A stretch of DNA of 64,000 nt from Ceratodon purpureus. Lineage: Eukaryota; Streptophyta; Bryopsida; Pseudoditrichales; Ditrichaceae. The stretch covers positions 13,900,023 through 13,964,022 of the forward strand of contig CM026433.1 of assembly GCA_014871385.1 (NCBI GenBank), in the 5' to 3' direction. Positions 25,600-52,171 of this stretch are shown piece after piece (within the stretch, counting starts at the first letter, position 1; each line of letters begins with the position of its first letter). Under the pieces are notes generated by a model, which made no database searches, was not told the DNA's origin, and worked only from the letters and a program-made list of their open reading frames with translations. Both the position numbers and the translations under genes were made by a program.

Positions 25600-26718
25600 A
25601 TGTTTGGAAGACCTGGCTCAGGTTCACCCGCGCACCTGAACAGAATGTCCCACTCTCGTTCTAGCCCGGTAAGGAAATCTCCACTCATGCATCAATGCTT
25701 GCTTACCATGCACAATTCTTCCGCATTTCCATCGGCAGAGTGACTAGTGTTTTGAAGGCGTGGAACCGTGATCCGCCCACCTTGTTTTACCTCGTCCCAA
25801 TCTGTTGCTTTATCAGTCTTAATTGCTTCCTGAAAACTTCGCGTATCTGTTGCAGCAGGCGCCATCGGCTTCTCCACACCCCGCTGGCAACACCACACCA
25901 CGTGGCATGGTACCGCTCGACATCAGAGGGAGGGCCCCTTACATGATACCTCCGGGCAGTGGCAGGCGTGATCTGAGCGGGGGACATGCGAGAGTGCAGC
26001 CGATCCGGCCCCGTGTAGCCTATCCTCCGACATCAGTCATGTCAGCCCCCTCTCCAAGTACTGCGACACCTCAATGTATTCCAGTGAGAAGTTCTCATTC
26101 CGAACCGCACCTTGGTTACATGTCTAACTGTCCAAGTACACCCCCAGTGATGCCTTCGACTGCGGCAGTACTGGCACCTCAAACTGCTCCAGTACGTGGT
26201 CGATCTCTTCAACTTGCGGCACAACGTGATGCAACGAATGCTGCGAGACGTCAGAATCGTCACCTTGATCAAGCTGGATACGACGAGATGCGGGTTGCGC
26301 ATGCGGCAGGCAGACCCGGTCGTTTTCCAATCCCGACTACTGCATCTGGAGAAATCATTGGTCAGCGGACCAAGTGGCATCGGGCCGTAAGGGCCATTGC
26401 AAAACGAACACTCGATTGGTCCATCAGAGAACACAAGAAGCACCCAAAATCCTGGAAGTGGAGTCTCGATACTATTCAGCGTGAGCTGGATGAGATGTTC
26501 TCATTTACGGTACCCGTGCGCGAGGACGTACTGGAGGAGTATGTCACAGGATTCATCAGCAACGACCGCTCGAAATGGAAGAAGTTCTGGACTGAGAATA
26601 ATTATACGAAACACGAGGACTGTCCCGACGAGGCTTTCACTATGTTAGACAAGTATTGGAGAAGTGATGCCGGCAAGAAGGAAAGCAAACTCGTGAAAGA
26701 AAAACGTGCCCGCGTGGG
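25600..26718 (+). pseudogene. Transposase_24/TNP1-like CACTA gene, 5' part, interrupted by nested element
   Basis: Exons 25600-25668 (MFGRPGSGSP) and 25856-26718 join in phase 0. The second exon begins with a Pro/Ser-rich region and then contains the conserved block of plant En/Spm second proteins (PF03004, Transposase_24): LDWSIREHKKHPKSWKWS, FISNDRSKWKKFWTENN, DEAFTMLDKYWRSD and KESKLVKEKRARVG. The frame then runs into the nested element and stops about 12 codons later. The downstream half resumes at 50316 in the same frame after a repeated 14-bp segment. The gene was therefore intact until the 23.6-kb insertion. In En/Spm, a second protein of this kind (TNPA/TNP1) binds subterminal repeats and works with TNP2. 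Confidence 0.88.
26705..26718. repeat. Left 14-bp direct repeat flanking the nested element
   Basis: cgtgcccgcgtggg, identical to 50316-50329. It encodes the same RARVG codons in the same frame on both sides, so one copy is a duplication of target sequence. It is separated from the inverted repeat by 4 bp (aaat). Confidence 0.88.
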
Positions 26719-26722
26719 AAAT

Positions 26723-26788
26723 GCTATTCTGCGAGCGATGAGCGGTGAGCGGTGAGCGGTGAGCGGTAACTTTGCGGAAATTTTGATG
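26723..26788 (+). repeat. Left terminal inverted repeat of the 23.6-kb element
   Basis: Begins GCTATTCTGCGAGCG and includes several tandem GAGCGGT units, then TAACTTTGCGG and ATTTTGATG. It aligns without gaps to the reverse complement of 50244-50309. Confidence 0.88.
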
Positions 26789-27897
26789 TTTAGGGTGAAG
26801 TTTCTCACTCTATAACTGCAGCATGTTGGTTTTATTTTTATTTTTATAACAAGGAGTATGACCTTAAAAACACCTATCACCGTGCGTGCCTATTCCCGTG
26901 CATGCATGGATACGAATTTAGGAAATGAAGAGTATTAGATCATTTACGAATCTTTTATGAATATAGTCTTGTCCTTTACTTAGTATCTAAGTCTATTATC
27001 AATATAAAGTAAGACTAATATGAATATAAAGTTTAGCCAAGTAAGAGAGATAAAGGAACAACTTGGTGATCACCATTAGACTATTTGGAAAATTTTCCAT
27101 TAATTGATTGTATTTTAATTTAGTCGCTGAGTCTATTATTATTATGAGGTCTAGGCAGAGAGAGAGATAAAAAGACTGCTCAACAACTGCAGATTTTTCA
27201 TTTATCAGATTTTTCATTTATCCGATTTTTCTTTTATCCGATTTGAGTTTGTTTATGTCAGTTTGGGAATGGCCCCAGCGATTATCCTTTGCGAGGTACG
27301 ACGTCCATTGCTTTCTCTCGAGAAGTATAACTCACCAAAGCCACTGCCCAAGTGACGGAAATATAATGTTGGTGGTTTGCTTATATCGAAGTAATGTCTG
27401 ATTAGGCCAAAGGTTATGGGATAATGAAGCAACGAGAATGTATTGCGGTCTCGAGGTAATGTCTGATAATGAAGCTCGGCTCGAAGTGCTGTGATCTCGA
27501 GAGTCCTTATGTGCTTAGTCCTTGAACCGAAAATTAGTGTGATTGTATTAATTAGTGTGACTGCATGGGTTAGAAATAAAAATAATTACTGTGATTGCAT
27601 TAATTAGTGTGACTGCCTGGGTTATAAATAAAAATAATTACTGTGATTGCGAATGAGATTACTTGTTGTCTCAAACCTGTGAGAATGGAGATTCTATGAT
27701 TCAATTAGAGATTTTGTGATTTAATTAAGGATTTCCTGATTCAAATTAAGTAAGCATAAAGAGGAACACAATTTAAGAAAAAATTGGAATAAGTTCTATA
27801 GCATTTACGAAAAAAAGGAAAAAGAACTAAAAAAAAAATAGGCATCAAAGAAAGAAAAAAGAAGCATAGAGTGAAATTCCGGACCTAAGTTGTATAA

Positions 27898-28139
27898 GTT
27901 CTATAGAGGGTGGGTAGCCTGGATTTTGTGCTGAATAAGATAAGGACTGGGACCCAGCAATCTGTAGATTTTAGAGGGATATTTATGACTAGAAACTTGG
28001 ATTAAAAAAGTGTAATGTAAAGAGTTAGGTACATTACAGAATCTTAATATGAAACTGGAACCCCGACAGTTCCAATAAGAGGACTTCAAGTATGCGATTC
28101 AAGAGTGGTCGGGGCCGAGTAGAGTTTATTCGGAGTTTA
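27898..28139 (+). repeat. Direct duplication, copy A
   Basis: Starts TTCTATAGAGGGTGGG and ends with GTGGTCGGGGCCGAG plus AGAGTTTATTCG. The second copy lies about 970 bp downstream at 28870-29113. Weaker similarity extends upstream (ATAAAAATAATTACTGTGATT near 27580, 27630 and 28495). Confidence 0.85.
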
Positions 28140-28184
28140 GTGAGTCTCCCTAAATTTCTAGGTTGGCATCATGCAAGATTGTGC

Positions 28185-28392
28185 TAATTGTATGGGTGAT
28201 GTGTATGGGATGTATGGGTGATGTGGATGGGATGTATATGCGATAATGTGTATGGGATGTACGGGTGAAGTGTATGGGATGCATGGGTGATGTGTATGGG
28301 ATGTATGGGTGATGTGAATGGGATGTATATGCGATAATGTGTATGTGATAATGTGGTTTGGTTTGATGTGTATGTGATAATGTGATAATGTA
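28185..28392 (+). repeat. TGTATGGGATG-type minisatellite
   Basis: Imperfect tandem copies of a unit of about 20 bp (GGGTGATGTGTATGGGATGTA and variants with TGCGATAATG). The minus strand reads as a spurious His/Ile/Thr-rich frame. Confidence 0.8.
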
Positions 28393-28869
28393 CTGCGGTC
28401 TCCAAGTGTTGCGGTCTGGACAGTCCTTAAGTGCTGACTACTCCAAGAGAAAATTAGCGTCAGTGCATTAATTAATGTGACTGCATGGGTTATGTATAAA
28501 AATAATTACTGTGATTGCGAAGGAGATTTCTTGATGTTGGGACCGCATGGATATAATTAAGCAACTTCAATCCCGAGATCTACCCTAAAAAGACCGAACT
28601 TAAATTGTAGCTCAAACCTGTGAGAATGGAGATTTTGCGATTCAAACGAAGGCGATGGCTTAGTGGGTTTCATGTCCAAAAAATTAAAAAAACCAATGAG
28701 TATTATACCAATTAATATAAAAAACAAAGGTAATTAAAATAAAAGTTAAGTAACCATGAAGAGGAAAACATTTCCAGAAAAAAATGGAATGAGCTTTATA
28801 ACATTTACGAAAGGAAGGAAACAGAAGTAAAAAAAGGAATATGTAAAATTCCGGAGCAATTTCGTTGAG

Positions 28870-29113
28870 ATTCTATAGAGGGTGGGAGGCCTGGATTCTG
28901 TGGTGGACAAGATTAGGACTGGGACCCAGCAATCTGTAAATTTCAGAGGGATATATATGACTAGAAACTTAGATTGAAAAAATGTAATGTAAAGACATGG
29001 GTACATTACAGAATCTTAATATGAAACTGGAGCCCCGAGAGTTCCAATAAGAGGACTTCAAGTATGCAATTCAAGAGTGGTCGGGGCCGAGCAGAGTTTA
29101 TTCGAAGTTTTGG
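28870..29113 (+). repeat. Direct duplication, copy B
   Basis: A diverged copy of 27898-28139 in the same orientation, with scattered substitutions and few indels. Confidence 0.85.
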
Positions 29114-29713
29114 GAAAGGCTCCTGAAATTCTTTAAGGCAGTAGACAAGATTGTGCTAATTCAGCTCATAGGTCTACGAGGAACTATTCACTCACAATCC
29201 TAAATAAAAATAGGGTAAATATAGAGTATGATTGGCTTAGATCCATTTTATCTTCGTTCATTCATATACCGGTTAGTTTTAATACGTTGCTGGGCCATTC
29301 ATACTATGTTCATAGGGGCGATTCTTAATGCTCGCACTCCTCGAGCCTCCTAGCTTATGTACAAGTAGGCAGATATCTGACCCGCTTCATCTGCCAGATT
29401 TTTACCTGTTAAAGGCTATGTGAGCTGTATTGTTTCGTGCTGGAGTCTCAACAACTGACATTATCGTGTGAAAGTAAGTTTTGACGTCATGGCGCCGGCG
29501 CCATATCATGTCTTCTTAACACTATATCGATTAATGCAGAGGATCAGGGACTATCTGTCCGGCGGACAGAAGACTGGGTGGCGGTGTATCATTAAGGGAT
29601 GCGAAATACGATCATAAACATGGACAGACTACTGTGAATATCAAGGAGATGCCGCCGGCGCCTTGACGTGAGATTGACGCGTTAGTGCATCATATATCAG
29701 GAGCAAGCGGAAC

Positions 29714-30439
29714 ATGCATTTCTCAAAAGACCTGAATGCTTATTTCTTTCTAAGGCGGAGAGTATTATCATTTCGTTGCCTCGTAACTATGTCTCCTCTT
29801 ATGTTTAGCCTCCACTCAGGATCACAGTTCGTGCTCAACCTTGGGACAATGCTGGAACCGCAGGTTGGAGATATAGTTATACGTAGAAGGCGGGCGGATT
29901 CCATCATCCGGTACTATCTATACAAGTCTCCGGAAGAGTGGTACCAGTATCATAAGACATGGCTGCTGAAGATCTTCCCGTCGTCAGTTCTTTCTGCTTT
30001 AGATAGTGATCGAAGTGATCTCCCTCCGAACATGAAGTGCATGATGCTTATGGTTTGGGAGTACGGGCTTGGATTCAAGGAGGCGATGACCGGAGGAATA
30101 CTTCTTCCGGAGGCACAAGACCCCGGACCGGCGCAAGTGCTCGGTTTAGGACGCGGAGGAACCGTCCCCGACCAGAATACTATTGTCCTGGCATTTACGC
30201 AGCCGAGTCTGCCTCATGGTCCAACATTTTTGCGTGCAGATTTCTGGAAAGAAAAGTACCTCCACAATGACTACGCAAACCTTATGGTCTTCTCAGTTGT
30301 AGACTCCGTCATTGGACCTAACAACTCCACTAGAACAGTGACGAATTGGAGCAGAGCGGGTTCGTCCTGGACATCCACTAATTCAATCACAGGGGCTTTA
30401 TCGCAATACTTAGGGTTGACCCTCGTAAATCTAGGCTAG
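29714..30439 (+). CDS. Hypothetical ORF, possibly a degenerate gene
   Basis: A 241-codon open frame with MHFSKDLNAYF at the start and MVWEYGLGFKEAMTGG in the middle. I do not recognise it. Other frames in the same interval are also long (30037-30270). A different frame downstream, about 30384-30555, reads like coding sequence (FIAILRVDPRKSRLV, then WLHCLESNMVMLILEDM) but is preceded by an in-frame stop. The pattern suggests an older multi-exon gene now broken by frameshifts, or introns I cannot place. It lies inside the 23.6-kb element near its left end. Confidence 0.35.
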   Translation: MHFSKDLNAYFFLRRRVLSFRCLVTMSPLMFSLHSGSQFVLNLGTMLEPQVGDIVIRRRRADSIIRYYLYKSPEEWYQYHKTWLLKIFPSSVLSALDSDRSDLPPNMKCMMLMVWEYGLGFKEAMTGGILLPEAQDPGPAQVLGLGRGGTVPDQNTIVLAFTQPSLPHGPTFLRADFWKEKYLHNDYANLMVFSVVDSVIGPNNSTRTVTNWSRAGSSWTSTNSITGALSQYLGLTLVNLG

Positions 30440-31630
30440 TTAGGCCCACTTCAGCTAGGAATATTGAGTGGTTGCACTGTTTGGAGTCGAATATGGTCAT
30501 GTTGATATTAGAGGATATGTGTACGTCTCTGAAGTATTATCAAGGAAGTCAATAAAATGTGATAATTTATTGGTCTTACTCGCATCGCGTCCCACTGGAC
30601 ATTCCTTATGTAACCCGAACTTGACATCCTTATGTAACCCCAACTTAACATCCTCATGTAACCCCTTATGCCATCTCCTTCACTGAAATCAGAGACCCTT
30701 CTGCCATCTCATTCTGGTCATTGTTTTCAATTTTACCCTTTCGTGAAGGGCCCTCTGGAGCAACCTCGCAGCCCTTGGCATAATGCCTCGGCCCCGAGCA
30801 GTCATCATGGGGTCCCTCACTCTGGTCAATTCATGGTTTCTTACAGTTGTTACTGGAGCCCATTGAAGCAGCGGTGAAGCACTTGACATAATGCCTCGGT
30901 GCGGAACTCTTGTTCTAGGTTCTCACAGTCTGGTCAGTGCATGTTTCTTTTAGCGCCCTTTGATGTACCCAGAAGCACTTGGCACAATGTGTACGTGCCG
31001 AGCACTGTTCCGTGGGACGACCATATGTAATAATCGCAGTGTAGAGCGGGAGAGGATAAGATGAATGGAAATAGGGGGTGGAATGCCAGAACCCGAAAAG
31101 AAAATAAAGCATATGTTAACGAAAAGGAAAAGTGCGGATGGAAAGGAAAAAGAAAAAGGGAAAATGGAAATGCAAAAGAAGGAATGAAAACACTAATAAA
31201 GGGGATAGGAATGAGACTGGATAGTTCGAGTGGAAGGGAGAAATGAAATTATTGGACTGAATGGATAAAGAAAAATACGAATGATGTTAATGAAAAAGTA
31301 TGGTGCGAGTGGAAGCGATAAATGAGATATTAAATACGGAATCAAAATAGAAGGAATCAGAGAATGGGATGTTAATTATAAAGAAAGATCCGTGAAGAAG
31401 GAATAAACAAGAAATAAAAAAGGGAATGATAGAAGAAAAAAATTGCGGGGGGGGGATAAGAATTAGAGAGGACATTTAAAGTGGAAGGAGAGTATGCAAA
31501 TAATGAGTGGAATGGGGAGAAGGATAAAAAATAGATAATGCAACTGGGAATTAAGAGAATTCATATACAGAGCTTTCGCTAAGCCCTTCAGTAGATGCGA
31601 GATCTACATCAACTAGCTTACGGCCCTAAC
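30440..31630. other. Noncoding, short repeats then A-rich DNA
   Basis: Contains three copies of a CCTTATGTAACCC-type unit near 30603-30665, and repeated TGGCATAATG/CCTCGG segments near 30775-31000 including a GCCTCGGCCCCGAGCAG copy of the element-wide motif. A purine-rich, gene-free stretch follows to about 31560. Confidence 0.5.
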
Positions 31631-34600
31631 TCACATTTCCAAAATGTCCTCCAAAGTACTGACAGAGCGTTCTTCAAGGTCGGACTCATCAACGGACGAT
31701 AGAGTGATTGAGGAGGGGCTAATATCTGAGAGATGATCGTCTGACTCATCGGCTTCAATATCAAGAAACTCCAACGACCTACTTGGTGCATTTCTAGATC
31801 TACAGTAACGGTACGAACCACGAGCTAGTTGGATAGCTGCATCATTTGCATAAGATGGAAGAATCCAAGACTGTGGAGGGCTCCGGTGGAAATGTGGATC
31901 AGAAAAAAAAGGACGATGCACTGGATACCTCATGTTATCGCATCTGCAAATGTAAATGGCAAGTTGTTTATAAATCCACTTTACATTGAATGCGTGTATA
32001 TGAGAGGTGACACTAGAGAAAAAGTGTCTAAACTCACTTCTTGAATCGAGATCTCTTCACGATCTTCATGACAGGAACTTCTTCCTCAGGATCCTCATTG
32101 CTGACATGCTGTGCGGTGCCGGCTTCAGGGATCGAAGTATTCCGAATTAATGGTTCCAACAAAGCCTCGAAAATGGCTGCATCAGCCTCCAAGGCCACAA
32201 TGTGGCGGTCGATGTTGCGGCAGGCATGGATAGATGAACCTGAAACACATCCCAAGGAGTTTATATGATGCTAATAGTGTTCGTTACCAAATAGGGAGGT
32301 ACTGCAACATGGATTACAAAAATTTATTTGGTACAAGAAACTGACCGGTTGCTGCCGTACAGTCTAATATGACGTTGCCCGGATCTGAAGCAGCTTCAAT
32401 CAACATTTCCATGAGTACCACCGATTTCTCCCGGGGGCCTCTCCATGGCCTCTGTCCATCACACTTCTGGTTCTCGGGGAGAACAATGTTCTGTAGGCAG
32501 TCATCACGGCCCACGTTTACACCGTGGCGGCTAAGAAGCTTGGGCACAGGCCTGAAAGCGAACTTTGATGGAGGAACTCCGCTTCTCACTGCCAGGGTAA
32601 TCCCGAACCTGAGTGTCTGCATCCCAATTTCAAACACTAAGTTAATATTAACTCATGAGGACTCTGTGATGGCATTCACATGGAGAGACTTCGAACTCGC
32701 ATCGGGCCCGAGCAATGATGACTGACTGCACAAGATCAGAAGTTTAATTCTAAATACGCTCCTCTGAATGGCTTTCTCCCCATGGCATTCTGCCACGGCC
32801 GTGACCACTAGATACTGCAAGCACACTGCTAGTATTACTAACTTCTTCGCACAGGCTCCTTGTCCAAGGAAACGAGAAAAACTATGAGCTGAATTTTAAT
32901 GGATAATTGGAGAGTACCTATAAAAAACCTGTGTGACTACAAAGCAATAGAGGGGGAATAATGTTTAGCTACAACTTACAGTAACGGATTGATCCAAGGG
33001 TGATGTTAGGTGGAGTCGGTTCATTGCCCACCATTCCTTGCGGACTTTCATCCCATACGTATCACAGTAACCTAGAATCTTGGATTTTGTTGTTGCACGA
33101 AAAGGATGAAAAAGTATCATCGCCCCATCATCGTGCAGGTGATTCTCAGCAAAGTCAAAAATGCTTTGCAACCAATCAGGAGCTCCCTCATTCCAAGCGG
33201 GGATGGATGCAGGAGGGTCTGAGATGCCTGGGACAGGGAGGTTCTCTGGTAAGTCAGCAATAATGAGGTCAACAAACGGGTGACTTACTTGATCTCCGTT
33301 CAAATGCAGGGATCTTCCGCCAGTAACCTGCACATAAAGAAAATAGAGTGAAGTCAATTATACAAGAAATAGCATCCGAAACTCAGGGGGCTTGAAGATG
33401 AAGTGAGGTCGTACTCTCACTCGTAAATCCAAGAAACAAATGTACAAATCTTAAGAATGTACAAATCCAAAAATCAAACAGCTAGCATCTAAGCAGGACT
33501 AACAGGAAGCATCCAAGCTTGATATCATTCTCTCCAATAGCCAAGGCTCCCTCTCAAGGCTCTCCTCGGCCCCGATCAGACATGGGTGAGCAGGCTCGGT
33601 ATGTCCAGCGCTTGCAGCCTGAACTCTATATCCAGCCTAGCTTTGCATGCGAGAGGTTGACTTTCCTTCTTATTTGGAAAGAGTTCAGCTACCAAGGCTC
33701 TCTCTAAGGCTCTGCTCGGGCCCGATCAGACATGGGTGAGCAGGCTCCGCATCTCCAGCGCTTGCAGCCTCAACTGCCCATCAGGTCGAGCATTCGAGCG
33801 GGGGTGGACTATTAGTCTTTTTTTCAAGCCATTCCCATGCCAAGGCTCCCTCTCAAGGCTCTGGTCGGCCCCGATCAGACATGGGTGAGCAGGCTCGGTA
33901 TGTCCAGCGCTTGCAGCCTCAACTCTGTATCCAGCCTAGCTTTGCATGCGAGAGGTTGACTTTCCTTCTTATTTGGAAAGAGTTCAGCTACCAAGGCTCT
34001 CTCTAAGGCTCTGCTCGGGCCCGATCAGACATGGGGGAGCAGGCTCCGCATGTCCAGCGCTTGCAGCCTCAACTGCCCATCAGGTCGAGCATTCGAGCGG
34101 GGGTGGACTATTAGTCTTTTTTTCAAGCCATTCCCATGCCAAGGCTCCCTCTCAAGGCTCTCCTCGGCCCCGATCAGACATGGGTGAGCAGGCTCGGTAT
34201 GTCCAGCGCTTGCAGCCTCAACTCTGTATCCAGCCTAGCTTTGCATGCGAGAGGTTGACTTTCCTTCTTATTTGGAAAGAGTTCAGCTACCAAGGCTCTC
34301 TCTAAGGCTCTGCTCGGGCCCGATCAGACATGGGTGAGCAGGCTCCGCATCTCCAGCGCTTGGAGCCTCAACTGCCCATCAGGTCGAGCATTCGTGCGGG
34401 GGTGGACTATTACTCTTTTTTTCAAGCCATTCCCGTGCCAAGGCTCCCTCTCAAGGCTCTGGTCCGCCCGAAACAGACATGGATGGGCAGGCTCCGCATG
34501 TCCAACGCTTGCAGTCTGAGCTGCCAATCGACCAGAGCATTCATGCGAGGGGTGGGGTTATACTTTTTTTTCCTAGCCATTCCCTTGCCAAGGCTCCCTC

Positions 34601-37600
34601 TGAAGGCTTTGCTCGGCCCCGATCAGACATGGATGACCACGCTCCGCATGTCCAGCGCTTGCAGTCTAAATTGCCCATGAGCCCAGCATTCTTGCGGAGG
34701 GTAGACATTAATTCTTTTTTTAAAGCCAGTTCCCTGCCCAGGCTCCCCCTAAGGCTCTGCTCGGCCCCGTTGAGTTATGAAAGATACAATTCTCTCGAAT
34801 AGGACTAAAGAGATGGTGAAATTTAGTTTAATTATGCAATGCTGAACTTAATTATGCGACTGCTGGGCTATGCAAAGTGACATGTGCTATCATTCAGGCA
34901 TGAGTCGATTCAAAAGGATACGAAGTACTTTACCTTGAGAAGGAAGTCCTTGATATCCAAATACATTGGTGTGAAGTCGTCACCTCTGCCTGCTAGGACG
35001 TCGTCGAGGGATGAGTTCAGGATCATTTCTTTATTGTGGCCACAGTCCACAACATCGTTAAATTCGAGAAGCTGATTGAGTTCATCATAGGTTGTTCTTC
35101 TTTTTCTACTCCTTGAGGCCGTATGCTCTTGCTGCCCGGAGCCTTGAGAGGGACTCTCAGTATCCTCCTGACCCGGGGTAGTGACCTTCTTCTTGCCTTT
35201 TTTGCTGTTCTTTCCTGTGCCCTCTGCTGCTTCTCAAGCTCCTTCTGCTCCGCCTTCTGCTCGGCCTCTCTCACTTTTTGGGCCTTCTTACGGTCCTCTT
35301 CGATCCTCCTCTTGAGCGCCTTCGCTCTCTCAGTTTCATCTTCTATTCCGATGAGATCAACCATTTCTATACCAGACTCCCCAATGGCGTCCCTGGACTT
35401 CCTGAGCTCGATCTCGAACGCTGGAGTAAAGCTCGGCACACAGTCCAAGTACCATGCACCTGCGGTAAGGTGTGAAGTCGTCCATGTCCGCTGCTGCAAA
35501 GCGGAGAACATGCATGCTGGACTCGATCGATCGACCCAGGCTGCAAGAAAAACAGGAAGGTTTTCCTTCGAGATTGCTTGCTTAGCTAAGAGCTCGTATT
35601 TGAAATACCTTTGCAGGACGAAACACACAATAAACCAATTAGCTTTGGCAAGAATCGGATAACAGAGTAAACAGCTCGTGTTTGAACTAGCCTTCTCGAG
35701 AGTTTCAGGCAGCTTACTGGAATTTGTATCGTACCATCAGGTAGTCCTATATAAATCATACCCTTGACCAATGCCATTGAAATAAACCAATGTGATCAAA
35801 TGGCTAATAAAACTACAGCAAGCCTCGTACTTTTTTCAAAATTAAAAGTGAGCTCACTGCCATGATAACAACCAGATGACAATTTATATGTAAAGGCCAC
35901 TGTCACTAGCGCAAACAAAATGTGATGTAAAGGATGCGTACCGGTAGAGGAGACGCCTGACGATCAGGTCTGCTCCCTTCAAATCCCGGAACTCGTGTCC
36001 TTTTTGGAAAGCTTCATTTCCACGAAAGTACGAATAAAAGACATTGTCCCACAGCTTCATTCGGCAATCCTCCACATAAGCAGGCAATGACATTGGGTCC
36101 CCTGGTACTGACATATCAATGATGATACGGTCTTGACGGACGATCTCGTCAAAGGCTGCCGTGGCTTGATCAGAGAGCTGTCCAATTTCCATACAAAATG
36201 TAAGCGAGGGCTGGACTTACCTGTGTTGAGGTCGTAAGGAAAATGGCCTTGCATCTGATTACAAATTCCTCAACCAAAGTGCGTCAACAACGACGAGGTA
36301 ATTTTGTGAAAATAATACCTCAGCCCAGAATGTGGCTTTATGGAGCCAAAGAGTTAGCTTCTCTTCGTTCACAGGCTTTGGTGGGATCTTCCGGGCCTCG
36401 CGGGTTGCAGCAGACGAATTAAAGTATTCAAGCCACTGGATCTTGGCTGCTGCTGTGGCCCTGGCGGTCACAATTAGCTGCAGCTTCTCAATAGTCAACT
36501 CCGTATTGCTGGAGTTCAAAGAGTAATGTCGCTCGACCTGCATAGCGAACATTGGTTCAGAAACTCTGCCTAGAAGTGGCTGCATAAAGTATGAGCTGCC
36601 CGGCGTAAACTACGCCATGGACATCTTGGTTCAAACCAAGTGTGATAGGGGCCGACCATACTGGCTTGGCCAGGCCAAGTTACACTTCGCCCTAACGTAC
36701 GGAGCTGCAGGATGAAAAGACCAGGCACGGATAGAAATCGTTCAAGGCGGCCATGAAAGTTCTTGACCCACTGTGATCGGGGCCGAACACACTTGCAAAT
36801 ACTTGGAATTGCGCTTTAAAAAACAATATGTATGAAGCGTTGCATTAATAGTACGTACACTGTCGACATATTGCTCAATGGAAGAGTCCAATTTAATTAT
36901 TTACCTCACGTAACCAAGCAGGTGTAAGCTCGGGATTGGCCACAGCGACAAATTTATTCATCTTCTGTCTCAGCTTCTCCGTTACCTTCTTTACGGCAGC
37001 TTTCATGGCAATTAGTTTTTCTGCTTCTGTGACATCACCGTCATTCTGCTCCAAGAATCCCCTTAGACCATCGTCGGCTGCACGGCTGATCTCATGCTGA
37101 AGAAGCTCAGAAAGTTCAGGTATAGGAGAAGAGGTCAGCGGCAGTAATATAATTCATTGGTGCAAGACCGTGGGGACACATGCGGACAAAATTCAAATGG
37201 AAATGAAAACGAAGAGTTAAACCTGCCTTACATCCACCAAAAGAATCAACATATTTGAAATGAATCCTGATTAAATACTGCAGTCGGAGCTATACTGCGA
37301 CCGAACATGGTAGAAGCCCCTTCTGATGCTCTGTTTGAAAGCATACCTGGAAGATGAAACTTGTGAACACTTTTATCGGCAAGGTCTGCCACGTATTGTG
37401 CTTTGTTTTCTTGCATCTCTTTAAATCAGAATCCGACAAGATATCCTTGAATTCATCCAAAGGCATCAAACCATATTTTTGAACCCTGAAGAGGGTATGA
37501 ACTGGATTGGTTTTGACGTGAGAGTCCTCCGTGTGCCTAGCAAAAGAGAAATTATTAGGAAAACTAGCACACAAAGGAACACCGAAAATCAGTTGCATAG

Positions 37601-40600: not shown

Positions 40601-43421
40601 GCAGCTGAATTCTTTCCAAGAAAAAATGAAAGTCAACCCCTCGCATGCAAAGCTAGGCTGGATACAGAGTTCAGGCTGCAAGCGCTGGACATGCGGAGCC
40701 TGCTCACCCATGTCTGATCGGGGCCGAGCAGAGCCTTAGAGGGAGCCTTGGCAGCTGAATCGTACGAAAAAAAAAAAGAGTATAACTCCACCCCTCCCAT
40801 GAATGCTCGGCTCGATGGGCAGCTCAGACTGCAAGCCGTGAACACTTCCATGTCTGATCGGGGCCGAGCAGAGCCTTAGAGGGAGCCTTGGCAGCTGAAT
40901 TCTTTCCAAGAAAGAATGAAAGTCAACCCCTCGCTTGCAAAGCTAGGCTGGATACAGAGATGAGGCTGCAAGCGCTGGACATGCGGAGCCTGCTCACCCA
41001 TGTCTGATCGGGGCCGAGCAGACCCTTAGAGGGAGCCTTGGCAACTGAATCGTACCAAAAAAAAAGAGTATAACTCCACCACTCGCATGAATGCTCGGCT
41101 CGATGGGCAGCTCAGACTGCAAGCCGTGGACATGGCGAGCCGTCTCACCCATGTCTGATCGGGGCCGAGCAGAGCCTTAGAGGGAGCCTTGGCAGCTGAA
41201 TTCTTTCCAAGAAAGAATGAAAGTCAACCCCTCGCATGCAAAGCTAGGCTGGATACAGAGTTGAGGCTGCAAGCGCTGGAGATGCGGAGCCTGCTCACCC
41301 ATGTCTGATCGGGGCCGAGCAGAGCCTTACAGGGAGCCTTGGCAGCTGAATCGTACCAAAATAAAAGAGTATAACTCCACCCCTCCCATGAATGCTCGGC
41401 TCGATGGGCTGCTCAGACTGCAAGCCGTGGACATGGCGAGCCGTCTCACCCATGTCTGATCGGGGCCGAGCAGAGCCTTAGAGGGAGCCTTGGCAGCTGA
41501 ATTCTTTCCAAGAAAGAATGAAAGTCAACCCCTCGCATGCAAAGCTAGGCTGGATACAGAGTTCAGGCTGCAAGCGCTAGAGATGCGGAGCCTGCTCACC
41601 CATGTCTGATCGGGGCCGAGCAGAGTCTTACAGGGAGCCTTGGCAGCTGAATCGTACCAAAATAAAAGAGTATAACTCCACCCCTCCCATGAATGCTCGG
41701 CTCGATGGGCTGCTCAGACTGCAAGCCGTGGACATGGCGAGCCGTCTCACCCATGTCTGATCGGGGCCGAGCAGAGCCTTAGAGGGAGCCTTCGCAGCTG
41801 AATTCTTTCCAAGAAAGAATGAAAGTCAACCCCTCGCATGCAAAGCTAGGCTGGATACAGAGTTCAGGCTGCAAGCGCTGGACATGCGGAGCCTGCTCAC
41901 CCATGTCTGATCGGGCCGAGCAGAGCCTCACAGGGAGCCTTGGCAGCTGAATCGTACCAAAATAAAAGAGTATAACTCCACCCCTCCCATGAATGCTGGG
42001 CTCGATGGGCAGCTCAGACTGCAAGCGCTGGAGATGCGGAGCCTGCTCACCCATGTCTGATCGGGGCCGAGCAGAGCCTTAGAGGGAGCCTTGGCAGCTG
42101 AATCGTACCAAAAAAGAAATAAAGGCAACCCCTCGCATGCAAAGCTAGGCTGGATACAGAGTTGAGGCTGCAAGCGCTGGAGATGCAGAGCCTGCTCACC
42201 CATGTCTGATCGGGGCCGAGCAGAGCCTTAGAGGGAGCCTTGGCAGCTGAATTCTTTCCAAGAAAGAATAAAAGTCAATCCCTCGCATGCAAAGCTAGGC
42301 TGGATACAGAGTTGAGACTGCAAGCGCTCGACATGCGGAGCCTGCTCACCCATGTCTGATCGGGGCCGAGCAGAGCCTTAGAGGGAGCCTTGGCAGCTGA
42401 ATCCTACCAAAAAAAAAGAGTATAACTCCACCCGTCGCATGAATGCTGGGCCCGATGGGCATCTCAGACTGCAAGCGCTGGACATGCGGAGCCTGCTCAC
42501 CAATGTCTGATCGGGGCCGAGCAGATCTTCTTTCCAGTGAACGCAATCGAAGCATGTGTATACAACCCATCATATAGACTTCACAGCCTTTCTTCTAAAC
42601 TCTGCTACTACAATGCTCGGCTGCAAGCAGATGAAAATTGAATTCTGGGTTTTAGATCTACCTGGTCAACTTGCATTTGTTCATCTTCTCCTCCCGTATT
42701 GCTAGGTTCCTTGTCCGCCATCCTTCGATTCTCCAAACCACAAGAGGATTTAGATACGGATTTGGGACTGCCAGAAGTCGCAGCAGTTCGCAACTTCGTA
42801 GGCCGGCCCCGCCTCGCTCGACCTGATGCAGAGTCTCCTGATTGCGTGCCTTCTTCCTGCGCACAGTATTGAAGTAGTCAGAACTGGGTTCGAAATGAAG
42901 AGTTCCTCAGAGGGGAAAAGCAGCATGAGTAGGAGGTCGAGGGTACGATCATACAGAGGTCCGAGGCCTTGAGGAGACTGAGCCGATGGTCTCAGCTCAG
43001 AAGTGTTCCAAGTGCTTTCGAAGCATGAACCCTAGATCCCGTAATTCAATAACTTGCAACTGAATAATTACACTAGAAAATCACTTATGAAATCCAAGGT
43101 TTGACTGGAATATGAACTACGGTAGTCATCATTGCTAACCTCCGAGGTTGTCATTTTCCGTGGTGAGCAAACCTCTTCGTCTAAAAATGCGAGTTTGAGT
43201 GGCTGAACCTCTCCATCATCAAACGCATCACCGTCACGAACTTCTTGGTTGACACCAGACTGATTAGACTTTCCTGTCCTCCTTCCCATTGTTGAACGCA
43301 AGTTGTATGGAGTAGAGGGACCGCCCCTAGACGCTAACTTCCGTAACCTCTCTTGACGTCGCTCTCTTCCAACTGCCCGACTAAATTCGATCTTCGCTTT
43401 CGCACCCGATCTGGTTATCAT
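31631..43421 (-). CDS. AT-hook / ParB-like / beta-class DNA methyltransferase-like protein, 12 exons
   Basis: Exons on the minus strand: 43421-43140, 42856-42662, 38303-37663, 37536-37347, 37096-36905, 36579-36319, 36177-35942, 35608-34934, 33327-32980, 32616-32346, 32239-32038 and 31943-31631. Every junction keeps phase except one problem inside exon 8. About 1268 residues. Domains in order: an AT-hook (RRGRPTK, near residue 110); an acidic stretch; a ParB/sulfiredoxin-like motif FFICDGNHRFQAW near 323; a helical middle; a Lys/Glu coiled coil; then a permuted amino-methyltransferase fold with motif IV first (LIIADLPENLP, near 915) and motifs I-II later (VILDCTAATGSS, RHIVALEAD). That order is the one seen in beta-class N4-cytosine/N6-adenine DNA methyltransferases. 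Bacterial and phage proteins pair ParB-like with methyltransferase domains. The catalytic D/S-P-P-Y is altered here to DLPE, so activity is doubtful. Exon 8 holds an A6-run frame slip (35198-35203) or an unusual 77-bp intron. Acidic C-terminus. Confidence 0.82.
33535..34775 (+). repeat. 150-bp tandem array, forward orientation, about 9 units
   Basis: Units recur every 149-151 bp and carry CTCGGCCCCGATCAGACATGG, alternating between two variants, so the higher-order unit is about 300 bp. It lies in intron 8 of the methyltransferase-like gene. It is the same family as the 38.6-42.5 kb array but in opposite orientation. Confidence 0.92.
38595..42525 (-). repeat. 150-bp tandem array, reverse orientation, about 27 units
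   Basis: About 27 copies of TGTCTGATCGGGGCCGAGCAG at roughly 150-bp spacing. Two monomer types tend to alternate, one with GAATTCTTTCCAAGAAAG and one with GTATAACTCCACCCCTCGC. It occupies most of intron 2 of the methyltransferase-like gene. Because 150 is divisible by three, minus-strand frames stay open through several units; these are not taken as genes. Confidence 0.95.
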
Positions 43422-43829: not shown

Positions 43830-44279
43830 ATGGAAAGCAACCCGATTCAGTCCCGCAGTCACCTAGCTTCAGGTTCACAGGAAGAGGGAGTTGAGCACGT
43901 GTCCTTAGATGAATTTCACGGTCCTTTTGAACCAGTTCTGGAATGCAATTCCCCTCACTGCAGGAAAGTCGATGTCCCCATCGATGACGTGCATGCAATG
44001 GATGATAGGAGCTGCAGCGATTCGCTTCAACCAAAACTGCCTGAAGTAGAGCGCACCCAGGGCAATTCAACTGAAGCATCCCATGCCTATGCTAGAGTAG
44101 GGGTCATCAAACCAGGAACATACTCTAGACTTCTTTTAAGAAGTAACCCCCGCCCTAGAGGACGCAAGCTAAAGAGTACAGGATGCTGGGCAGCTCAGTG
44201 CATTGAAGGGCCTCAAGGAGATAGTATCAATGAATCAAATACTGCTGAGAGATCTAAAAAGCGCAGCCGCCAAATGTGA
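43830..44279 (+). CDS. Small basic protein with AT-hook-like motif, 149 aa
   Basis: A single open frame starting MESNPIQSRSHL. Family unknown. Residues near 108-116 (RPRGRKLKS) resemble an AT-hook core, and the C-terminus (KKRSRQM) is basic like a nuclear localisation signal. A Cys/His pair (ECNSPHCRKV) might bind metal. A TATA box sits about 90 bp upstream. It is divergent from the methyltransferase-like gene, which also has an AT-hook, and lies upstream of the transposase gene on the same strand. A DNA-binding partner role is inference only. Confidence 0.55.
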   Translation: MESNPIQSRSHLASGSQEEGVEHVSLDEFHGPFEPVLECNSPHCRKVDVPIDDVHAMDDRSCSDSLQPKLPEVERTQGNSTEASHAYARVGVIKPGTYSRLLLRSNPRPRGRKLKSTGCWAAQCIEGPQGDSINESNTAERSKKRSRQM

Positions 44280-44719: not shown

Positions 44720-47700
44720 ATGGCCTACCTTCGTGCGGACTCGCATTCTGTCCCGATTACCTTTCCATTGGGTGTAGACGGGTGTGCTATGATCAGTTCC
44801 ACAACTCTGAGTCTCCGATTTCGGTTACGGGAGGACTCTCTGCATGTGGAAGAGGAGTTTTTTGACGACATTACTGGTGGACTCTCGCACGCAGTGGGTC
44901 AGTTGTCAACTAAGAATGAGATTGGAACATTCTGGATGCTGAGACCTGGGAAGTATAGAGTTTACGGAGTTACGGAGTCTGGCCTAGGTGCCTCTACTGA
45001 ATTGCTTACTCCCCGGTCGTCCACAACAGTTTGCATAGAGTCTGAACCATTGTTGAGGAAGGTAAAAACCGAGCCAGGTCTTCAGACAATCTATGAGTTG
45101 AGTGATGGATCCGATAGTGAGAATGCAGAGGAGACCACTCTAATCCATGAGAGCAAGGAGAAGACAGTAATCCATGAGAGCACAGAGAAGACTGTAATGC
45201 ATGAGAGCACAGAGAAGACTGTAATCCATGAGAGCAAGGAGAGGACAGTGCCAATTCCAGACGATAATCGTGAGGAAGTGGTTCTCTCTGCGAAGTCGTC
45301 GGTTGCGTCTACGGTTGCTGTCTCCCCTTCAGAGAGCGTCGTTCAGTGCCTCATGAAGCTTAGCATCCGTAAGAGGTCCAAGAGTGTTCTGTCGCGCATT
45401 GATTTTAATGCAATTAGAATGCAGGAAGTTCAGTTCCTCCCACCAGTGTACAACGGCGATGTCATTTTTGAGTTCCCACCCATTGGTGCTTACGGCCTTC
45501 AGTCTGGTGCGAAGCAGTTACGTGGAATGGATAGGAAGTATGACGGCCACCCCTGGACTCGAACAGTGACGTCGAATATTCAGAACGACCTCAAGCTGAC
45601 ATTCCGTTCTTCGTCGTGCCTTGGCCATCTGCGCTGTGACAATGTCAAATGTGAGTACCTCTCTCGTGAAAATAGGAGTGCGCAAGTGAACGAGACTGAG
45701 TGGGATGGAATTTCCGAGAAACTGTTCGAAGTTGGATGTACTGCGCCGCAGAGTTCCACTGTACTCTGTAAATCTTGCAGTACGCCACCGACCTGCGTTG
45801 CACTTTGCCCTGCAAAGATTTACTATGTCACTGCAGGACCTCACATGACGAGAGCGTGCGTTCACTTGGGAACTCACAACCACCCAGTGAAGTCCGGCGA
45901 GAACCGCGACTTCGTCGAACACACTGAGAACTTGATCAGGGAGCAGGTGGAGCGTACTCCGTCCGCCACCAATTCCGCCATCGTCCTTGAAACTGCGAAG
46001 GAGTTGCTTGGCCCGTTACTTCTGGCCAAGGAGGGTGAACCGCAGAAGATTCTGGAATTAGAGGAGCTCGAACCAATCTTCGACCGCTGTAAGCACCTTT
46101 CTTCCCCAAACATCAGAAACTGCATTACGTCGTTCAAGGCTGTTAGGCGCTTTGGGACCATGGACAGCATCAGAATGCTGCGAGGCTTCAGCAACTGGAA
46201 GTTTATTCAGAACAACATGTTTCCGGGGCAAGGCGATGATGCTGCGAAGGTGTATGTCTTCAAGATGTCTGAGGTAGGGCCGGGTTCTGGAGTCGATCTA
46301 GTTAAGCGTATGCAGACTGGCGGAGACTTGGAGAATGCGTGGATCATGTTTGACCACGTGAGGCGAGTTAGGGACTGGGTAACGATGGCCTGCCACGTCT
46401 ATGACCCCACCTACTGTCGGATAATGACAATCGCAGCGTGCGACATGCAGTCAGAGGACACGGCAGCCCAATCCGTCCTCTGGAAGAATCTGAATGCTAT
46501 CATGGAGACCCACGGGGTTCTGAGAGTAAATTTTAAGGGCTTCATGGCAGACGGTGCCCAAGCAAATTTCAACGCAGTTCGCATAATTTATGGGAGCGGT
46601 AATCCCTCCGAGAGGATGATTGATAGGGAGAGGACATGCTTGTTTCATTGGAGGCAGTCTTTGGAGCAACATACAAAGGCTGACATTCGACCGGACTTGC
46701 GAGCGCAGCACATCAAACTCTGCCAGCAGTACAAGAACGCGACGACAATGGCCGAAGCTGAAACAAAGTTTTTGGCAATCCGAGCATGGTGGATGTCATC
46801 CGGCGCTGCCACAGAAAAAGGGCTCTCAAATCTGGAAACGTGGCTCGCGTTCTGGCACCACCGCTATCGCCAATGGGGAGGCTTCATGGAATTGGTAATC
46901 AAACTTACGTCCTTTCAATCTTTGTCGCATCTAAATAAACTTCCTGTATAGTCAGCCCTCGAACACCCTAAACCCTAAACCTAACCACCAAGGTGTGCAG
47001 AATCACAGCGAAGATGAGCTCGCGGAGATGCCGTCCTGCAACCTTGCTGAATCAATCCACAACAGGTGGAAGCAGCAGTCTGGAGATCGGGGCAGCGACT
47101 TATATGTCGCCGCTGTGGACGACTTTGTACGGGCCTTCATGCAATGCGTTGCCTACTTCCAGTTCCTAAAGGGGGAGCGACCTGGAAAAGGTCCGTCAAA
47201 AGAGGAGCTGAAGCTCCGACGTGCACAGAGGTCTGCAGCGAGAACAGGGAATCCGAAAGTTCTACATGAAGCGATTCTGAACATGCCAGGAGCACAGGAA
47301 TGGTGCACCAGGAACCCGCATCTTGAAGGGGAGGAGGTCTGTGTGTCTCTGAAACGAAAACCCGATGTTGCCTTCGGAGATGAGCGGGAGTCTCATAGGC
47401 CAGATAAGATCAGTGTGTCAAGACCTCGTGTCCAGACCCGAGCTGCACGCCGGGAGAGCGACTATCCTCCGACGGTGGTAATTGCAGACTCCCCTACAAG
47501 CAGCGAAGAGGACCAAGCCGACCTTCACCCCAACCACTCTCCACCTCCAGTTGACTACCATCACGTCACTTCAGTTGAGGAGACCGCCTGCAACCCTTCA
47601 GAGTGGCACATTGCACGACTTCCTAAGACATCCGCCAAGGCCTGCTTCGCCCAACATGCTGTATCTGAGAAGAAATGCGTGGCACGGATTGTGCAGAACG

Positions 47701-48452
47701 GGAAGAGCACTGCTGCGCCCACATACACGGGCCCCATGAAGAACTACAAAAAAGACAGAGTAGAGACTCATCAGTTCTTTTTCTGTAATGACGACATTGA
47801 CAGGTGCGTCAAGGGTAGCAGACGGAAGTGGGTCTTATCGGTGCCAAAGGTACCTGAGGTTTGGCCCGTGAAGCTTGGAACGAAGCTGACGAAGAAAGAG
47901 ATCTTGTCTCTAGAGAGTGCTGGCTTTAGACTCCCGCAGCAGAGGGAGATGTCACCGAGAAGACTCTTTCAAGACCGGGCACCGGCACTGGACTTCTCGG
48001 CCTACCCTACGCCGGCAAATCCAGATGAGTTCCCTACCCGGCGGTCAGGAAAGCTTATCCGACGGAACAAGAAGGCCCCGTCAACAAAGCATAGCAATAA
48101 TTGTGCCTCTGCCTTGTCGTTGAATGGGAAGGTGAGCAAGTTGTGCATGCTGCCAGCCCCAGCCCTGGGATGCATAGTCACACTGGACTCTGGGAAGCTT
48201 CCAAAGATACAGCAGTATTACCTGACGATTTCGCAACACCCTGCCTGCACTTGCCCGTATTTCAAGGAGATGGCAATGCAGGCACTTGGGAAGCGGGGTC
48301 AGTGGGCTAGTTGCAAGCACTTGTACTATTTGTTCAGTGTAGTTTGCGCTCTAGACTCTGAATCGGATACATTCATTCACGCACCTAGTTTTAGCTTCAA
48401 CGAGGTGAAGCGAGTCCTGGAGAGTGGCCTTCTGAAGTACTTGGACAACTAG
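44720..48452 (+). CDS. MULE-like transposase with WRKY/GCM1-type zinc cluster and SWIM finger
   Basis: Likely transposase of the 23.6-kb element. Two exons, 44720-46894 and 47001-48452, join in phase 0 (about 1208 aa). The open frame extends upstream to 44690, but the first ATG is at 44720. Landmarks: an N-terminal 9-residue tandem repeat (HESTEKTVM type, about residues 143-175); a WRKY/GCM1-type zinc cluster near 270-390 (SSCLGHLRCDNVKCEYL then GTHNHPV); a DDE-like core with an Asp in WIMFDHVRRVRDW, then GFMADGAQANF, the conserved RTCLFHWRQSL, and CNLAESIHNRW across the exon junction; and a C-terminal SWIM finger (CTCPYFKEM ... WASCKHLYYLF). WRKY/GCM1 fingers are known from Mutator-related transposases. 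No stop or frameshift is seen, so the element may be autonomous. Confidence 0.85.
45147..45252 (+). repeat. 27-bp coding tandem repeat in the transposase
   Basis: About four copies of a 27-bp unit (ATCCATGAGAGCAAGGAGAA and variants) encode the 9-residue HESxEKTVI repeat. A minus-strand open frame here is its shadow. Confidence 0.9.
46960..46985 (+). repeat. Interstitial CCCTAAA telomere-like units in an intron
   Basis: ACCCTAAACCCTAAACCTAA lies in the single intron of the transposase gene, close to the 3' splice site. Confidence 0.8.
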
Positions 48453-48687
48453 TGATATCTGAGTCGTTGTTTGCACATGTGTAACCTGAATTCATTTCAA
48501 AGGTGAAGTAGTGAGACTAAAAGGGCCACTACCCAGAATTTGCAGTAGCACTGGATTCCATATCTCCATTTTCGAGTGAAATTCGCTCTGAATATGCAGA
48601 AGCATTGAAAACAGTTGTTAAGAAAGCAATGTTCGGGCGCTATTTAATTGCTGAAGAGGTCCGAATAATCGTGATTATGAAAGAGTC

Positions 48688-48885
48688 ACGTAAGTGTGGT
48701 CGGGCCCGAACAATCCTTTTTTCAGGGTTTAGGAGGGAGTCACCTAAGTGTGGTCGGGCCCAAACAAACCTTTTTCAAGGTGTAGGATGGAGTCACCTAA
48801 GTGTGTTCGGGCCCGAACAAACCTTTCTCACAGTCCATGAGGGAGTCACCTAGGTGTGTTCGGACCCGAACAAACCTTTTTACAG
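48688..48885 (+). repeat. Four tandem copies of a motif with TCGGGCCCGAACAA core
   Basis: GAGTCACCTAAGTGTGGTCG and CGGGCCCGAACAAACCTTTT recur four times at about 50-bp spacing, just downstream of the transposase gene and about 1.4 kb from the right terminus. The core matches the motif in the 150-bp arrays and near the left terminus. Confidence 0.85.
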
Positions 48886-49735: not shown

Positions 49736-50243
49736 ATGTATTCAACTGAAGTTCAAGCACTCATTCACTCGGTTGTATAAAGGCAAAATGTTATCAATAA
49801 TTGAAGCTTGATGTTTTGAATCGTTGGAGGCATTTGAAGAGGTGACCGTTTGAAAGGTTGTTGTAATATGAAAGATCAATTTAGCGTGTATAAAAAGATA
49901 CAAAGTCTCAACTGTCATACACGAGGGACAATATCTGTACCTGAACCAACATTTGCGAATTGGAACAGAAGGCCGCTACTGCGTGACCGTCACCTCAGTG
50001 CACGTCCCCAAAATAAGCCCCAGCCGAATAGTTCTTATGACAACATTCCACGAGTGCAAGCCCCTACTGCCCACTCACCCTAAACCAACATTTTCCACGG
50101 CCATAGATCCAAGTCCTTCAGTCATTTCACTGAAATTGTCCACGGCCATAGGTCACGTTACGAACTATATTTAGAATTTTAAAAACTAAAAAAAGTTGTA
50201 AAACCATAAAATACTGTATCCTTACCGCTCTAAATCATATTTT
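49736..50243. other. Right subterminal region of the 23.6-kb element
   Basis: No gene seen. CCACGGCCATAG occurs twice (near 50097 and 50140), and TTACCGCTC occurs again just inside the inverted repeat. Confidence 0.5.
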
Positions 50244-50309
50244 CATCAAAATATCCGAAAAGTTACCGCTCACCGCTCTCCGCTCGCCTCTCAACGCTCG
50301 CAGAATAGC
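50244..50309 (-). repeat. Right terminal inverted repeat of the 23.6-kb element
   Basis: The reverse complement matches 26723-26788 at 60 of 66 positions without gaps. Six bases (gacgtc) separate it from the flanking 14-bp direct repeat. Confidence 0.88.
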
Positions 50310-50315
50310 GACGTC

Positions 50316-52171
50316 CGTGCCCGCGTGGGCGCTACATCTACTTCGAGTCTTCCCTACAGCGACGACTCCCCGACCCAGAAGCGTCACCGACACGACACCG
50401 ACGCTCTTGACTTACCACATTACCAAGACAATGACTACAATGACGATGAGTTGAACGGAATGTCAAGCCCTGTAAGTGTCCTTCTCTATTTTACAGATTA
50501 GGTTTAGCCTTCATGGTTCTCCTATCTGTCATATAGTTCGTGGACACACATGGTTGGGACTTAATGCTTATTGATTCATAGCGCATATTGCCCATGCCCT
50601 TCTCAATTCACCCTAACGTACTTGCCATCCATACCAGGATTACAACACGGTGACATTCAGCACTCAGACACCGTTTAACAGCTTTGATAGTGGCGGATCA
50701 GAACCTTCGGTGCCTCTCGGCCACGACTCTTTCATGGACGCCAACACTGAACTCGCCAATCCCATCAAACGCCGATCACCACCGACTACATCGAATCCCT
50801 CCTTGTCAGACGTCCACACCCCACATGTAAGTGTCCGTTTTCTTTATGAGGAATATCTCCACATTCAGATTGGTATGCAATGTTAGAGCATTCTCTAATT
50901 ACATAATTTTTACAGGCCATGGTCTCCACAGGATATCGGGGCCATGTCTATGGCGATGACCCCACTTCACATCAACTGGTGCATTACCGATCCGGGTACG
51001 CACAAGATCAGCGGGGGGACGAACGTGCTCGCATAGAAATGCTCGAGTCAAGACTAATGGGATGCGAGGACTCGAAAGTGGCCATGGAATCCCGCCTAGA
51101 TTTTATACAAGCTGATGTTAGTAGTACTAGGAATGCAATGCAGGAACTCATCGCCATGATCAAACGTTCTGCGTCAGAGAGTAGACACCCGCGTGGACAT
51201 ACCGCGGATGCTATTGAAACACATCAAAGTTCTCCACATAAACCAGGTACCTCGTAATTCCCTACTCTTGAAGAAGCAATCACCACTCTATTTTTGGATA
51301 TGAAATTAATTCTAGCAACACTCATATTGACCGCTCTTTTCCAGAGTCACCGACGGCGAGCATGAAGACAGTGCTACTGTCACCAGCATCTGCAGTGACC
51401 GAGACCATCAACAAAGCAAAGGAAAATGTTGAGACGCGGGTGTCAAGCGGCAATAGTCGGAGTCCTAACAACAACGAAACGACATTTGAGGCAAACACAC
51501 CGCGCCTACCCATGCCCAGTGATGAGACAGCAAAGGCCAATGGCGATGCAGTCGTTGCAGCGGTGACATTGCCAGTTGACGATCTGAGCACTGCAGCGCC
51601 CTCGGACAATGATCCACCCATTGATGTTGCCGCATGTGGCTATCACACGAGGCCCGACCCTATACTGACGCCAATGGAGACTCCGAGGGAAATGATGGAC
51701 ATTCTGCTTCCTCAAGCTTCGGACTGGGACAATGACTTCGAACCTCTACCTCCTCGACGAATCCAGCAAACAACGGTTGTGCCTGTTGAGACCCGCGGAC
51801 GGAAGAAGGGCAAAACAACGTCCATGTGCACAAAAGTGCCTCCGGAACCCATACTTCCTCGAGACGAAGGTTGTGACCCAATCTCCGTAGGAAAACCGGT
51901 CTGGATTCTTCACGAACAATTTCCTCTGATCGTGGTTGCGCAGGGGAAGGCAGGTGTGGCCTGGCGGACAAAATCTAACAAACTAGGGGCACAGTGTTCA
52001 GAGGGACACCAGTGGATTCACGTTCACAGGATCTTCAAGCATTCTGTACCCCTCTTGTTCCCCGAACCAGAAGTGGGATGCTCTGTTCTGGAAAGCGCTC
52101 TCCCCCCGGCACAAGGACGTCACAAACAGATTATGTGGTCATCTCGCCACCTTATTACATACAAACCGTAG
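50316..52171 (+). pseudogene. Transposase_24/TNP1-like CACTA gene, 3' part
   Basis: Continuation of the gene broken at 26718. Exons 50316-50471, 50638-50826, 50916-51246 and 51345-52171 join in phase. The first 14 bases are the duplicated target. Joined to the 5' part with one copy of the duplication, the product would be about 806 residues with no stop. This half holds an acidic linker, a predicted coiled coil (ERARIEMLESRLMGCEDS), a Ser/Thr/Pro-rich stretch, a basic patch (RGRKKGK) and a C-terminal domain (VGKPVWILHEQFPLIVVAQG through WIHVHRIFK) resembling the TNP1/EN/SPM C-terminal family (PF03017). Without the 5' part it lacks a promoter and start, so it is probably silent. Confidence 0.87.

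Follow-up and report, generated by a model that had tools for sequence, protein, structure and literature searches.

Giant DNA transposons of eukaryotes have been reviewed, and Pack-MULEs reach up to 7 kb (PMC6431247). Mutator-like elements (MULEs) duplicate 8-11 bp of their target site (PMC6446971). The VANC proteins of VANDAL elements bind a motif that is arrayed in the element, and they counteract silencing (PMC5735166). The giant transposon Sola1-1_Ec32 of Ectocarpus is 21.5 kb long and carries, on the opposite strand from its transposase, an accessory gene for a 1,104-amino-acid protein with ParB-like and N4/N6 methyltransferase domains; the same paper also cites elements from red and green algae (PMC12477816). 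So, ParB/methyltransferase cargo has already been reported for giant algal transposons. (For these four papers, our statements refer to the excerpts available to us.) We analyzed a 64,000-nucleotide stretch of the moss Ceratodon purpureus (assembly GCA_014871385.1, contig CM026433.1, positions 13,900,023 to 13,964,022 of the forward strand), which we will call the window, and number from its first letter. It contains a 23.6-kb element that is very likely a giant, recently mobile DNA transposon of the Mutator superfamily (MULE type). Besides a transposase, the element encodes a ParB-like and methyltransferase-like protein (gene B), and it carries tandem arrays of a short palindrome. What is new here is the Mutator and moss setting, the palindrome arrays, and an altered methyltransferase motif. 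Our literature search, whose coverage left out most subscription journals, turned up no moss MULE reported to carry cargo of this kind.

A preliminary description of this locus proposed a large cargo-bearing DNA transposon with 66-bp terminal inverted repeats (TIRs), and both proposals were borne out: self-BLAST recovered the two repeat cores (26723-26788 and 50309-50244), which are identical at 60 of 66 positions without gaps (E = 3.5e-19). A 14-bp direct repeat was described at both junctions as well. That sequence (CGTGCCCGCGTGGG) does occur in the window at 26705 and again at 50316, and nowhere else, but the true target-site duplication (TSD) is 10 bp. The check that had been set in advance was a genome search for paired ends with duplications, and such pairs recur, with 10-bp duplications. 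We tried to pair the ends of 10 copies besides the window's and succeeded for 8. In all 9 pairs, counting the window copy, the TSD is 10 bp, and no other length from 4 to 19 matches. The TSDs of the eight other pairs are GTATTGATCA, GTTCTCTCTA, CAGTGCCGCC, ATGCCTCCGG, TAGATGCTGC, TTAAGATTTG, GTGACAGCAT, and GCGCGCGAAA.

The ends of the other copies explain the remaining bases of the 14-bp repeat. A genome search with the element's left end listed about 40 places, and GGGAAAT precedes the TIR core in all 21 distinct left ends that we read, including the window's. (A 22nd left end has the tip TGGAAAT instead.) Similarly, from about 40 places listed, we read 26 right ends (19 plus those of the window, C5a, C5b, C5c, C12, C1, and C13), all of which terminate in NNCGTCC; we ignored one spurious fuzzy match in L064. 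Because other copies have these tips, the GGG and one C within the 14-bp repeat belong to the element's tips and match the flanks by chance. By the same evidence, the 4-bp and 6-bp spacers that were described between the duplication and the repeats are the element's own unequal tips. Together, the TSDs and tips of the paired copies place the window element at 26716-50316. The element had also been described as interrupting a CACTA gene whose frame resumes on the far side. Excising the insert does leave a reading frame open across the joint, but the CACTA identity was not confirmed: no Pfam model matches the interrupted open reading frame (ORF; 25823-26752). No empty site came to light in another copy of this gene, although no search aimed at one was made.

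Searching the genome with the element's first 800 bp gave at least 42 match rows; its final 800 bp gave at least 68. Given the paired ends, the 10-bp TSDs at different sites, and the many copies, this is a mobile element. Three other copies are 100% identical (rounded) to the window copy over 800 bp at both ends, so the element moved recently. From their coordinates, the paired copies are 23,601 bp (the window copy), 24,497 bp, 22,831 bp, 24,938 bp, 22,126 bp, about 19.8 kb, and about 27.5 kb long, while the two longest are 35,523 bp, with an insertion of ~13 kb, and 37,064 bp, with a nested relative (see below). Another copy, L028 (G000:C5:10741954-10742654), has a left flank that by eye resembles transposase coding sequence, so it seems to be inserted in a relative.

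The preliminary description listed a transposase, a gene resembling ParB and DNA methyltransferases, an AT-hook-like small gene, intronic 150-bp arrays, and an element-specific motif. All of these are present, the small gene being a basic one (Table 1). For the transposase, we found 51 metagenomic homologues and aligned 48 of them with the window protein (20 of the 48 were also in a separate analysis). Asp558 and Asp624 are invariant in this alignment. The C-terminal part of exon 2 has, by eye, a CxC..CxH pattern, presumably SWIM-like, that has no Pfam match. When we modeled the structure of 458 residues of exon 1 (predicted local distance difference test [pLDDT] of 77.5), the top match among solved structures was the ISCth4 transposase (Foldseek prob 1.00, E = 5e-4), which we take to be a member of IS256, a relative of Mutator. 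The 10-bp TSD and the ISCth4-like model very likely place the element in the known Mutator superfamily, instead of in a new lineage marked by an unusual 14-bp duplication, as had been suggested. There is good support for transposition by a transposase of the Mutator type. Genome contigs yielded a single 4.1-kb relative of the transposase (L001; CADCWO010000080.1), from a cyanobacterial metagenome-assembled genome from desert crust (AVDCRST). This relative looks eukaryotic and bears an intron, at a position that, by eye, is the same as in the moss transposase. It is probably in that genome through contamination.

Gene B was compared across copies using all exons except exon 8, whose start in the window we read by eye. 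The flanking AG/GT and the frame are kept in 11 of 11 exons in copy C12 and in 9 of 11 in copy C11. (Exons 1 and 2 of C11 were missed in that comparison; exon 1 was found at 83% in another.) Both the transposase and gene B are under purifying selection. For the window copy versus C12, C1, C11, and C13, the ratio of nonsynonymous to synonymous divergence (dN/dS) is 0.12, 0.12, 0.15, and 0.12 for the transposase; for gene B, with exon 8 excluded, it is 0.22, 0.23, 0.18, and 0.11 (for C13, dS of gene B is above 1). Furthermore, exons of both genes are found together in all five of the other copies for which we fetched at least 30 kb of interior (C12, C1, C11, C2, and C13). This co-occurrence and the selection indicate that the element carries gene B as a regular part rather than as a passenger. 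An additional copy with 86% identity (L076), for which 5 kb was fetched, has DNA matches to gene B at 80-83%. As for the small gene, its protein is 52-89% identical across five copies, and in C12 it is interrupted by a single internal stop.

What might gene B encode? Exon 2 has what we take to be an AT-hook-like region. Exon 3 has 293 metagenome homologues and contains a CDGNHR-like motif, of which C164, D165, N167, H168, and R169 are invariant in 50 aligned sequences. We call it ParB-like because of this DGNHR-like motif and the published algal analogue. Viral contigs contained no relatives of this exon or of the transposase, and searching the sequences of solved structures with a profile of either one gave nothing informative. 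The C-terminal part of gene B matches PF01555 (E = 1.2e-6; 29.1 bits, versus a cut-off of 26.7) and DpnA (E = 1.4e-6).

In N4/N6 DNA methyltransferases, the catalytic motif IV is (D/N/S)PP(Y/F/W), and there are two places where it might lie in gene B. The first, after the VDLII strand, reads DLPE in the window copy, C12, C1, C11, and C2, and DVPE in C13. We also examined 25 homologues that were found with the methyltransferase-like exon (53-91% identity). At the first placement, these have D[LIM]PE (20), DIPM (1), or DCQE (4). The second placement is 11 residues downstream and is paired with the DPPY of DpnA by a non-significant HMMER segment; there, 19 homologues have DPP, NPP, or SPP, with T, S, R, or N as the next residue, and 6 have other residues. 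None of the 25 homologues, the window copy, or the five other copies has a Y, F, or W at either placement. Since relatives lack the aromatic residue, the gene B protein would more likely act by occupying DNA than by N4 or N6 methylation.

Within the window, the palindrome is confined to the element. The sequence TCGGSCCCGANCA, with up to one mismatch, has 80 strand matches in the window, versus 0.39 expected, and all of them lie within 28106-48872. The 16-mer TGNTCGGSSCCGANCA has 35 sites in the window element and its core has 40, while neither has any site in 40,399 bp of flanking sequence. None of the 40 cores lies in coding DNA and none is in the 66-bp TIR cores; 7 lie outside the two 150-bp arrays, two of these being in the 53-bp array. 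To quantify conservation, we used 83 array units from three copies (those of the 89 listed hits that were 120 bp or longer). Conservation was 0.994 for the palindrome and 0.867 for the rest of the unit. The eight best-conserved 16-bp windows of the unit all overlap the palindrome; other short stretches are nearly invariant too. C12, C1, and C13 contain 35, 33, and 12 cores and 33, 31, and 1 of the 16-mers. The two 150-bp arrays are mutually inverted in the window copy and parallel in C12 and C1, which rules out a conserved hairpin between inverted arrays in the gene B pre-mRNA.

The C13 copy contains a nested element from a second family (C13:11501246-11515816; 14,571 bp), which has inverted repeats of its own and is flanked by a duplication of 10 bp (GAATATGGCC). 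Its amino acid identity to the window element is 50-51% for the transposase and 31-47% for the gene B exons. It has a 139-bp array, in which 11 of about 13 units contain the 10 bp of the palindrome core but lack the bases that surround it in the 16-mer. (These account for 11 of the 12 cores in C13.) In other words, the gene pair, the duplication length, and the palindrome core go together in two families.

Some of our results weigh against these interpretations. The match to ISCth4 has a low TM-score (0.23-0.29), and the exon 1 model has a predicted TM-score of just 0.40. None of the element's proteins is matched by the Pfam models for MULE, SWIM, or ParB. The model of the ParB-like exon is poor (pLDDT of 64), and fold searches with it gave no informative match. 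In the window copy, exon 8 of gene B has a 1-nucleotide frameshift, while in C12 and C11 it is one open frame, so gene B of the window is defective or there is a sequencing error. Exon 3 of C11 has two in-frame stops and exon 9 of C2 has one. For both C11 and C2, the 50 kb that we fetched from each left end contained no recognizable right end, so in these two the genes need not lie in one element. (Their left ends are near G000:C11:8797175 and G000:C2:22596888, and the transposase is 36-49 kb into the fetched stretch; the elements are either very long or composite.) Nor does every copy have dense arrays, as those 50-kb stretches have 10 cores (C11) and 7 cores (C2), and the outer copy in C13 has a single 16-mer. 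The 4.1-kb L001 has no palindrome.

How might the parts work together? The 1,208-amino-acid transposase, presumably of the DDE type, would bind the ~66-bp inverted repeats and transpose the element by a cut-and-paste mechanism in which the cut is staggered by 10 nt. The gene B protein would bind the 16-bp palindrome, which is amplified in the intronic arrays, and by coating the element might let it escape silencing, as VANC does for the VANDAL MULEs of Arabidopsis. The anatomy of the arrays, the selection on gene B, and the altered catalytic motif are consistent with such VANC-like self-binding, which we favor tentatively and would not yet call probable. A ParB-parS-like system might have been domesticated by giant transposons of plants, with the ParB/pseudo-methyltransferase protein loading at arrayed palindromes and spreading, so as to mark and protect the element; this is possible but doubtful.

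The palindromes could instead be sites for the transposase or a host protein, serving in the control of transposition or as enhancers, and gene B would do something else. We think that this is rather unlikely. Transposases can bind repeated subterminal sites, and palindromes are also present in the leftmost 2.4 kb and downstream of the transposase gene. However, the two main arrays are inside introns of gene B, and the 66-bp repeats lack the palindrome. Another explanation is that gene B encodes an active methyltransferase, guided by the ParB-like part, that writes N4-methylcytosine or N6-methyladenine on its own element. The matches to PF01555 and DpnA, the purifying selection, and the [DNS]PP triplet that 19 of the 25 homologues keep at the second placement all fit with activity, which was also suggested for the algal proteins, in the excerpted text (PMC12477816). 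The missing aromatic residue, at both placements and in all 25 homologues, makes it unlikely. Alternatively, the arrays and the palindrome might be functionless, selfish intronic satellites that are maintained by homogenization of the units alone. Arrays are indeed homogenized within copies, the number and orientation of units vary between copies, and the palindrome is not the unit's only nearly invariant stretch. But the core recurs outside the 150-bp arrays and in the different 139-bp unit of the second family, and it is better conserved than the remainder of the unit, so we consider this improbable. Finally, a new superfamily with 14-bp duplications, for which there is the 14-bp repeat at this single locus, is almost certainly wrong, given that 10 bp is the sole length that matches in 9 of 9 pairs.

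Table 1. Features of the transposon and their positions in the window
Feature	Position	Strand	Details
Complete transposon	26716..50316	+	23,601 bp, GGGAAAT to GACGTCC; limits from the 8 other pairs plus additional single ends
Left TSD	26706..26715	.	GTGCCCGCGT, 10 bp
Right TSD	50317..50326	.	GTGCCCGCGT, 10 bp
Left TIR core	26723..26788	+	66 bp; preceded by 7-bp tip GGGAAAT at 26716-26722
Right TIR core	50244..50309	-	66 bp; followed by 7-bp tip GACGTCC at 50310-50316
Transposase gene	44720..48452	+	1208 amino acids; exons 44720-46894, 47001-48452; intron 46895-47000
Gene B (12 exons)	31631..43421	-	Exons 1-6: 43421-43173, 42856-42662, 38303-37663, 37536-37347, 37096-36905, 36537-36319
Gene B, exons 7-12		-	36177-35942, 35608-34934, 33327-32980, 32616-32346, 32239-32038, 31943-31631
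Gene B, regions			Exon 2 AT-hook-like; exon 3 ParB-like; exons 9-11 methyltransferase-like
Small gene	43830..44279	+	149 amino acids; basic segment (TYSRLLLRSTPRPRGRKLKS in other copies)
150-bp tandem array	33540..34769	+	About 8 units, with palindromes; in gene B intron 8
150-bp tandem array	38587..42525	-	About 26 units, with palindromes; in gene B intron 2
53-bp tandem array	48683..48881	+	Palindromes TCGGGCCCGAACA and near variants; 3' of transposase gene
Isolated palindrome cores	28109..36786	.	TCGGSSCCGA at 28109, 29081, 30788, 32702, 36777; all non-coding

Elsewhere in the window, there is a second putative element at 5804-14726, with 291-bp inverted repeats that are perfectly identical (5804-6094 and 14436-14726). 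It contains an ORF with weak resemblance to SWIM (10859-12079), as well as ORFs on the opposite strand. A direct repeat of 12 bp flanks it; this repeat is G-rich, which makes its interpretation difficult. CACTA-type ORFs, with Tnp2 (PF02992, E = 7e-71) and DUF4218 (E = 5.9e-31), lie at 19549-22422 on the minus strand, which is opposite to the interrupted ORF. An AT-rich array of 11 units of 214 bp (59503-61836; 97% matches), with a RING-finger ORF on one side and a kinase-like ORF on the other, shows strong GC skew. Three related G-rich arrays, with units of about 20-22 bp, are spaced apart (55722-55920, 58902-59120, and 61997-62163).

The size of the element, its moss host, the palindrome arrays, and the altered motif remain noteworthy in comparison with known systems. 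As a complete and recently mobile giant element of the Mutator type from a land plant, it joins the few giant eukaryotic DNA transposons that have been described. Its arrays offer a concrete candidate binding site for ParB/methyltransferase accessory proteins, and because the aromatic residue of motif IV is missing, methylation versus occupancy can be tested directly.

The moss element resembles MULEs, which have bacterial relatives in IS256, in its 10-bp TSD, its long TIRs, and, with a low TM-score, its ISCth4-like transposase model. Unlike MULEs, which are a few kb, it spans 20-37 kb; it also differs in the unequal 7-bp tips outside the repeat core, in the lack of Pfam matches, and in its two-gene design with palindrome arrays. 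Other giant elements have different TSD lengths: these are 8 bp for KDZ elements, so we rejected membership in that group, and 2-3 bp for CACTA elements. The KDZ and EnSpm/CACTA giants of algae and fungi share the large size and the accessory genes with the moss element (PMC12477816), and differ in their transposases. Compared by description (PMC5735166), VANDAL elements likewise have a short, element-specific, non-coding motif that is spread in tandem repeats, including in introns of the accessory gene. The VANDAL motif is YAGTATTAY instead of a 16-bp palindrome, and it is the moss accessory protein that is ParB/methyltransferase-like. Sola1-1_Ec32, also compared by description, is similar to the moss element in size and in having a ParB-like and methyltransferase accessory gene on the opposite strand. 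It belongs to the Sola superfamily and to an alga, and its excerpted account mentions neither arrays of binding sites nor a lost catalytic residue (PMC12477816).

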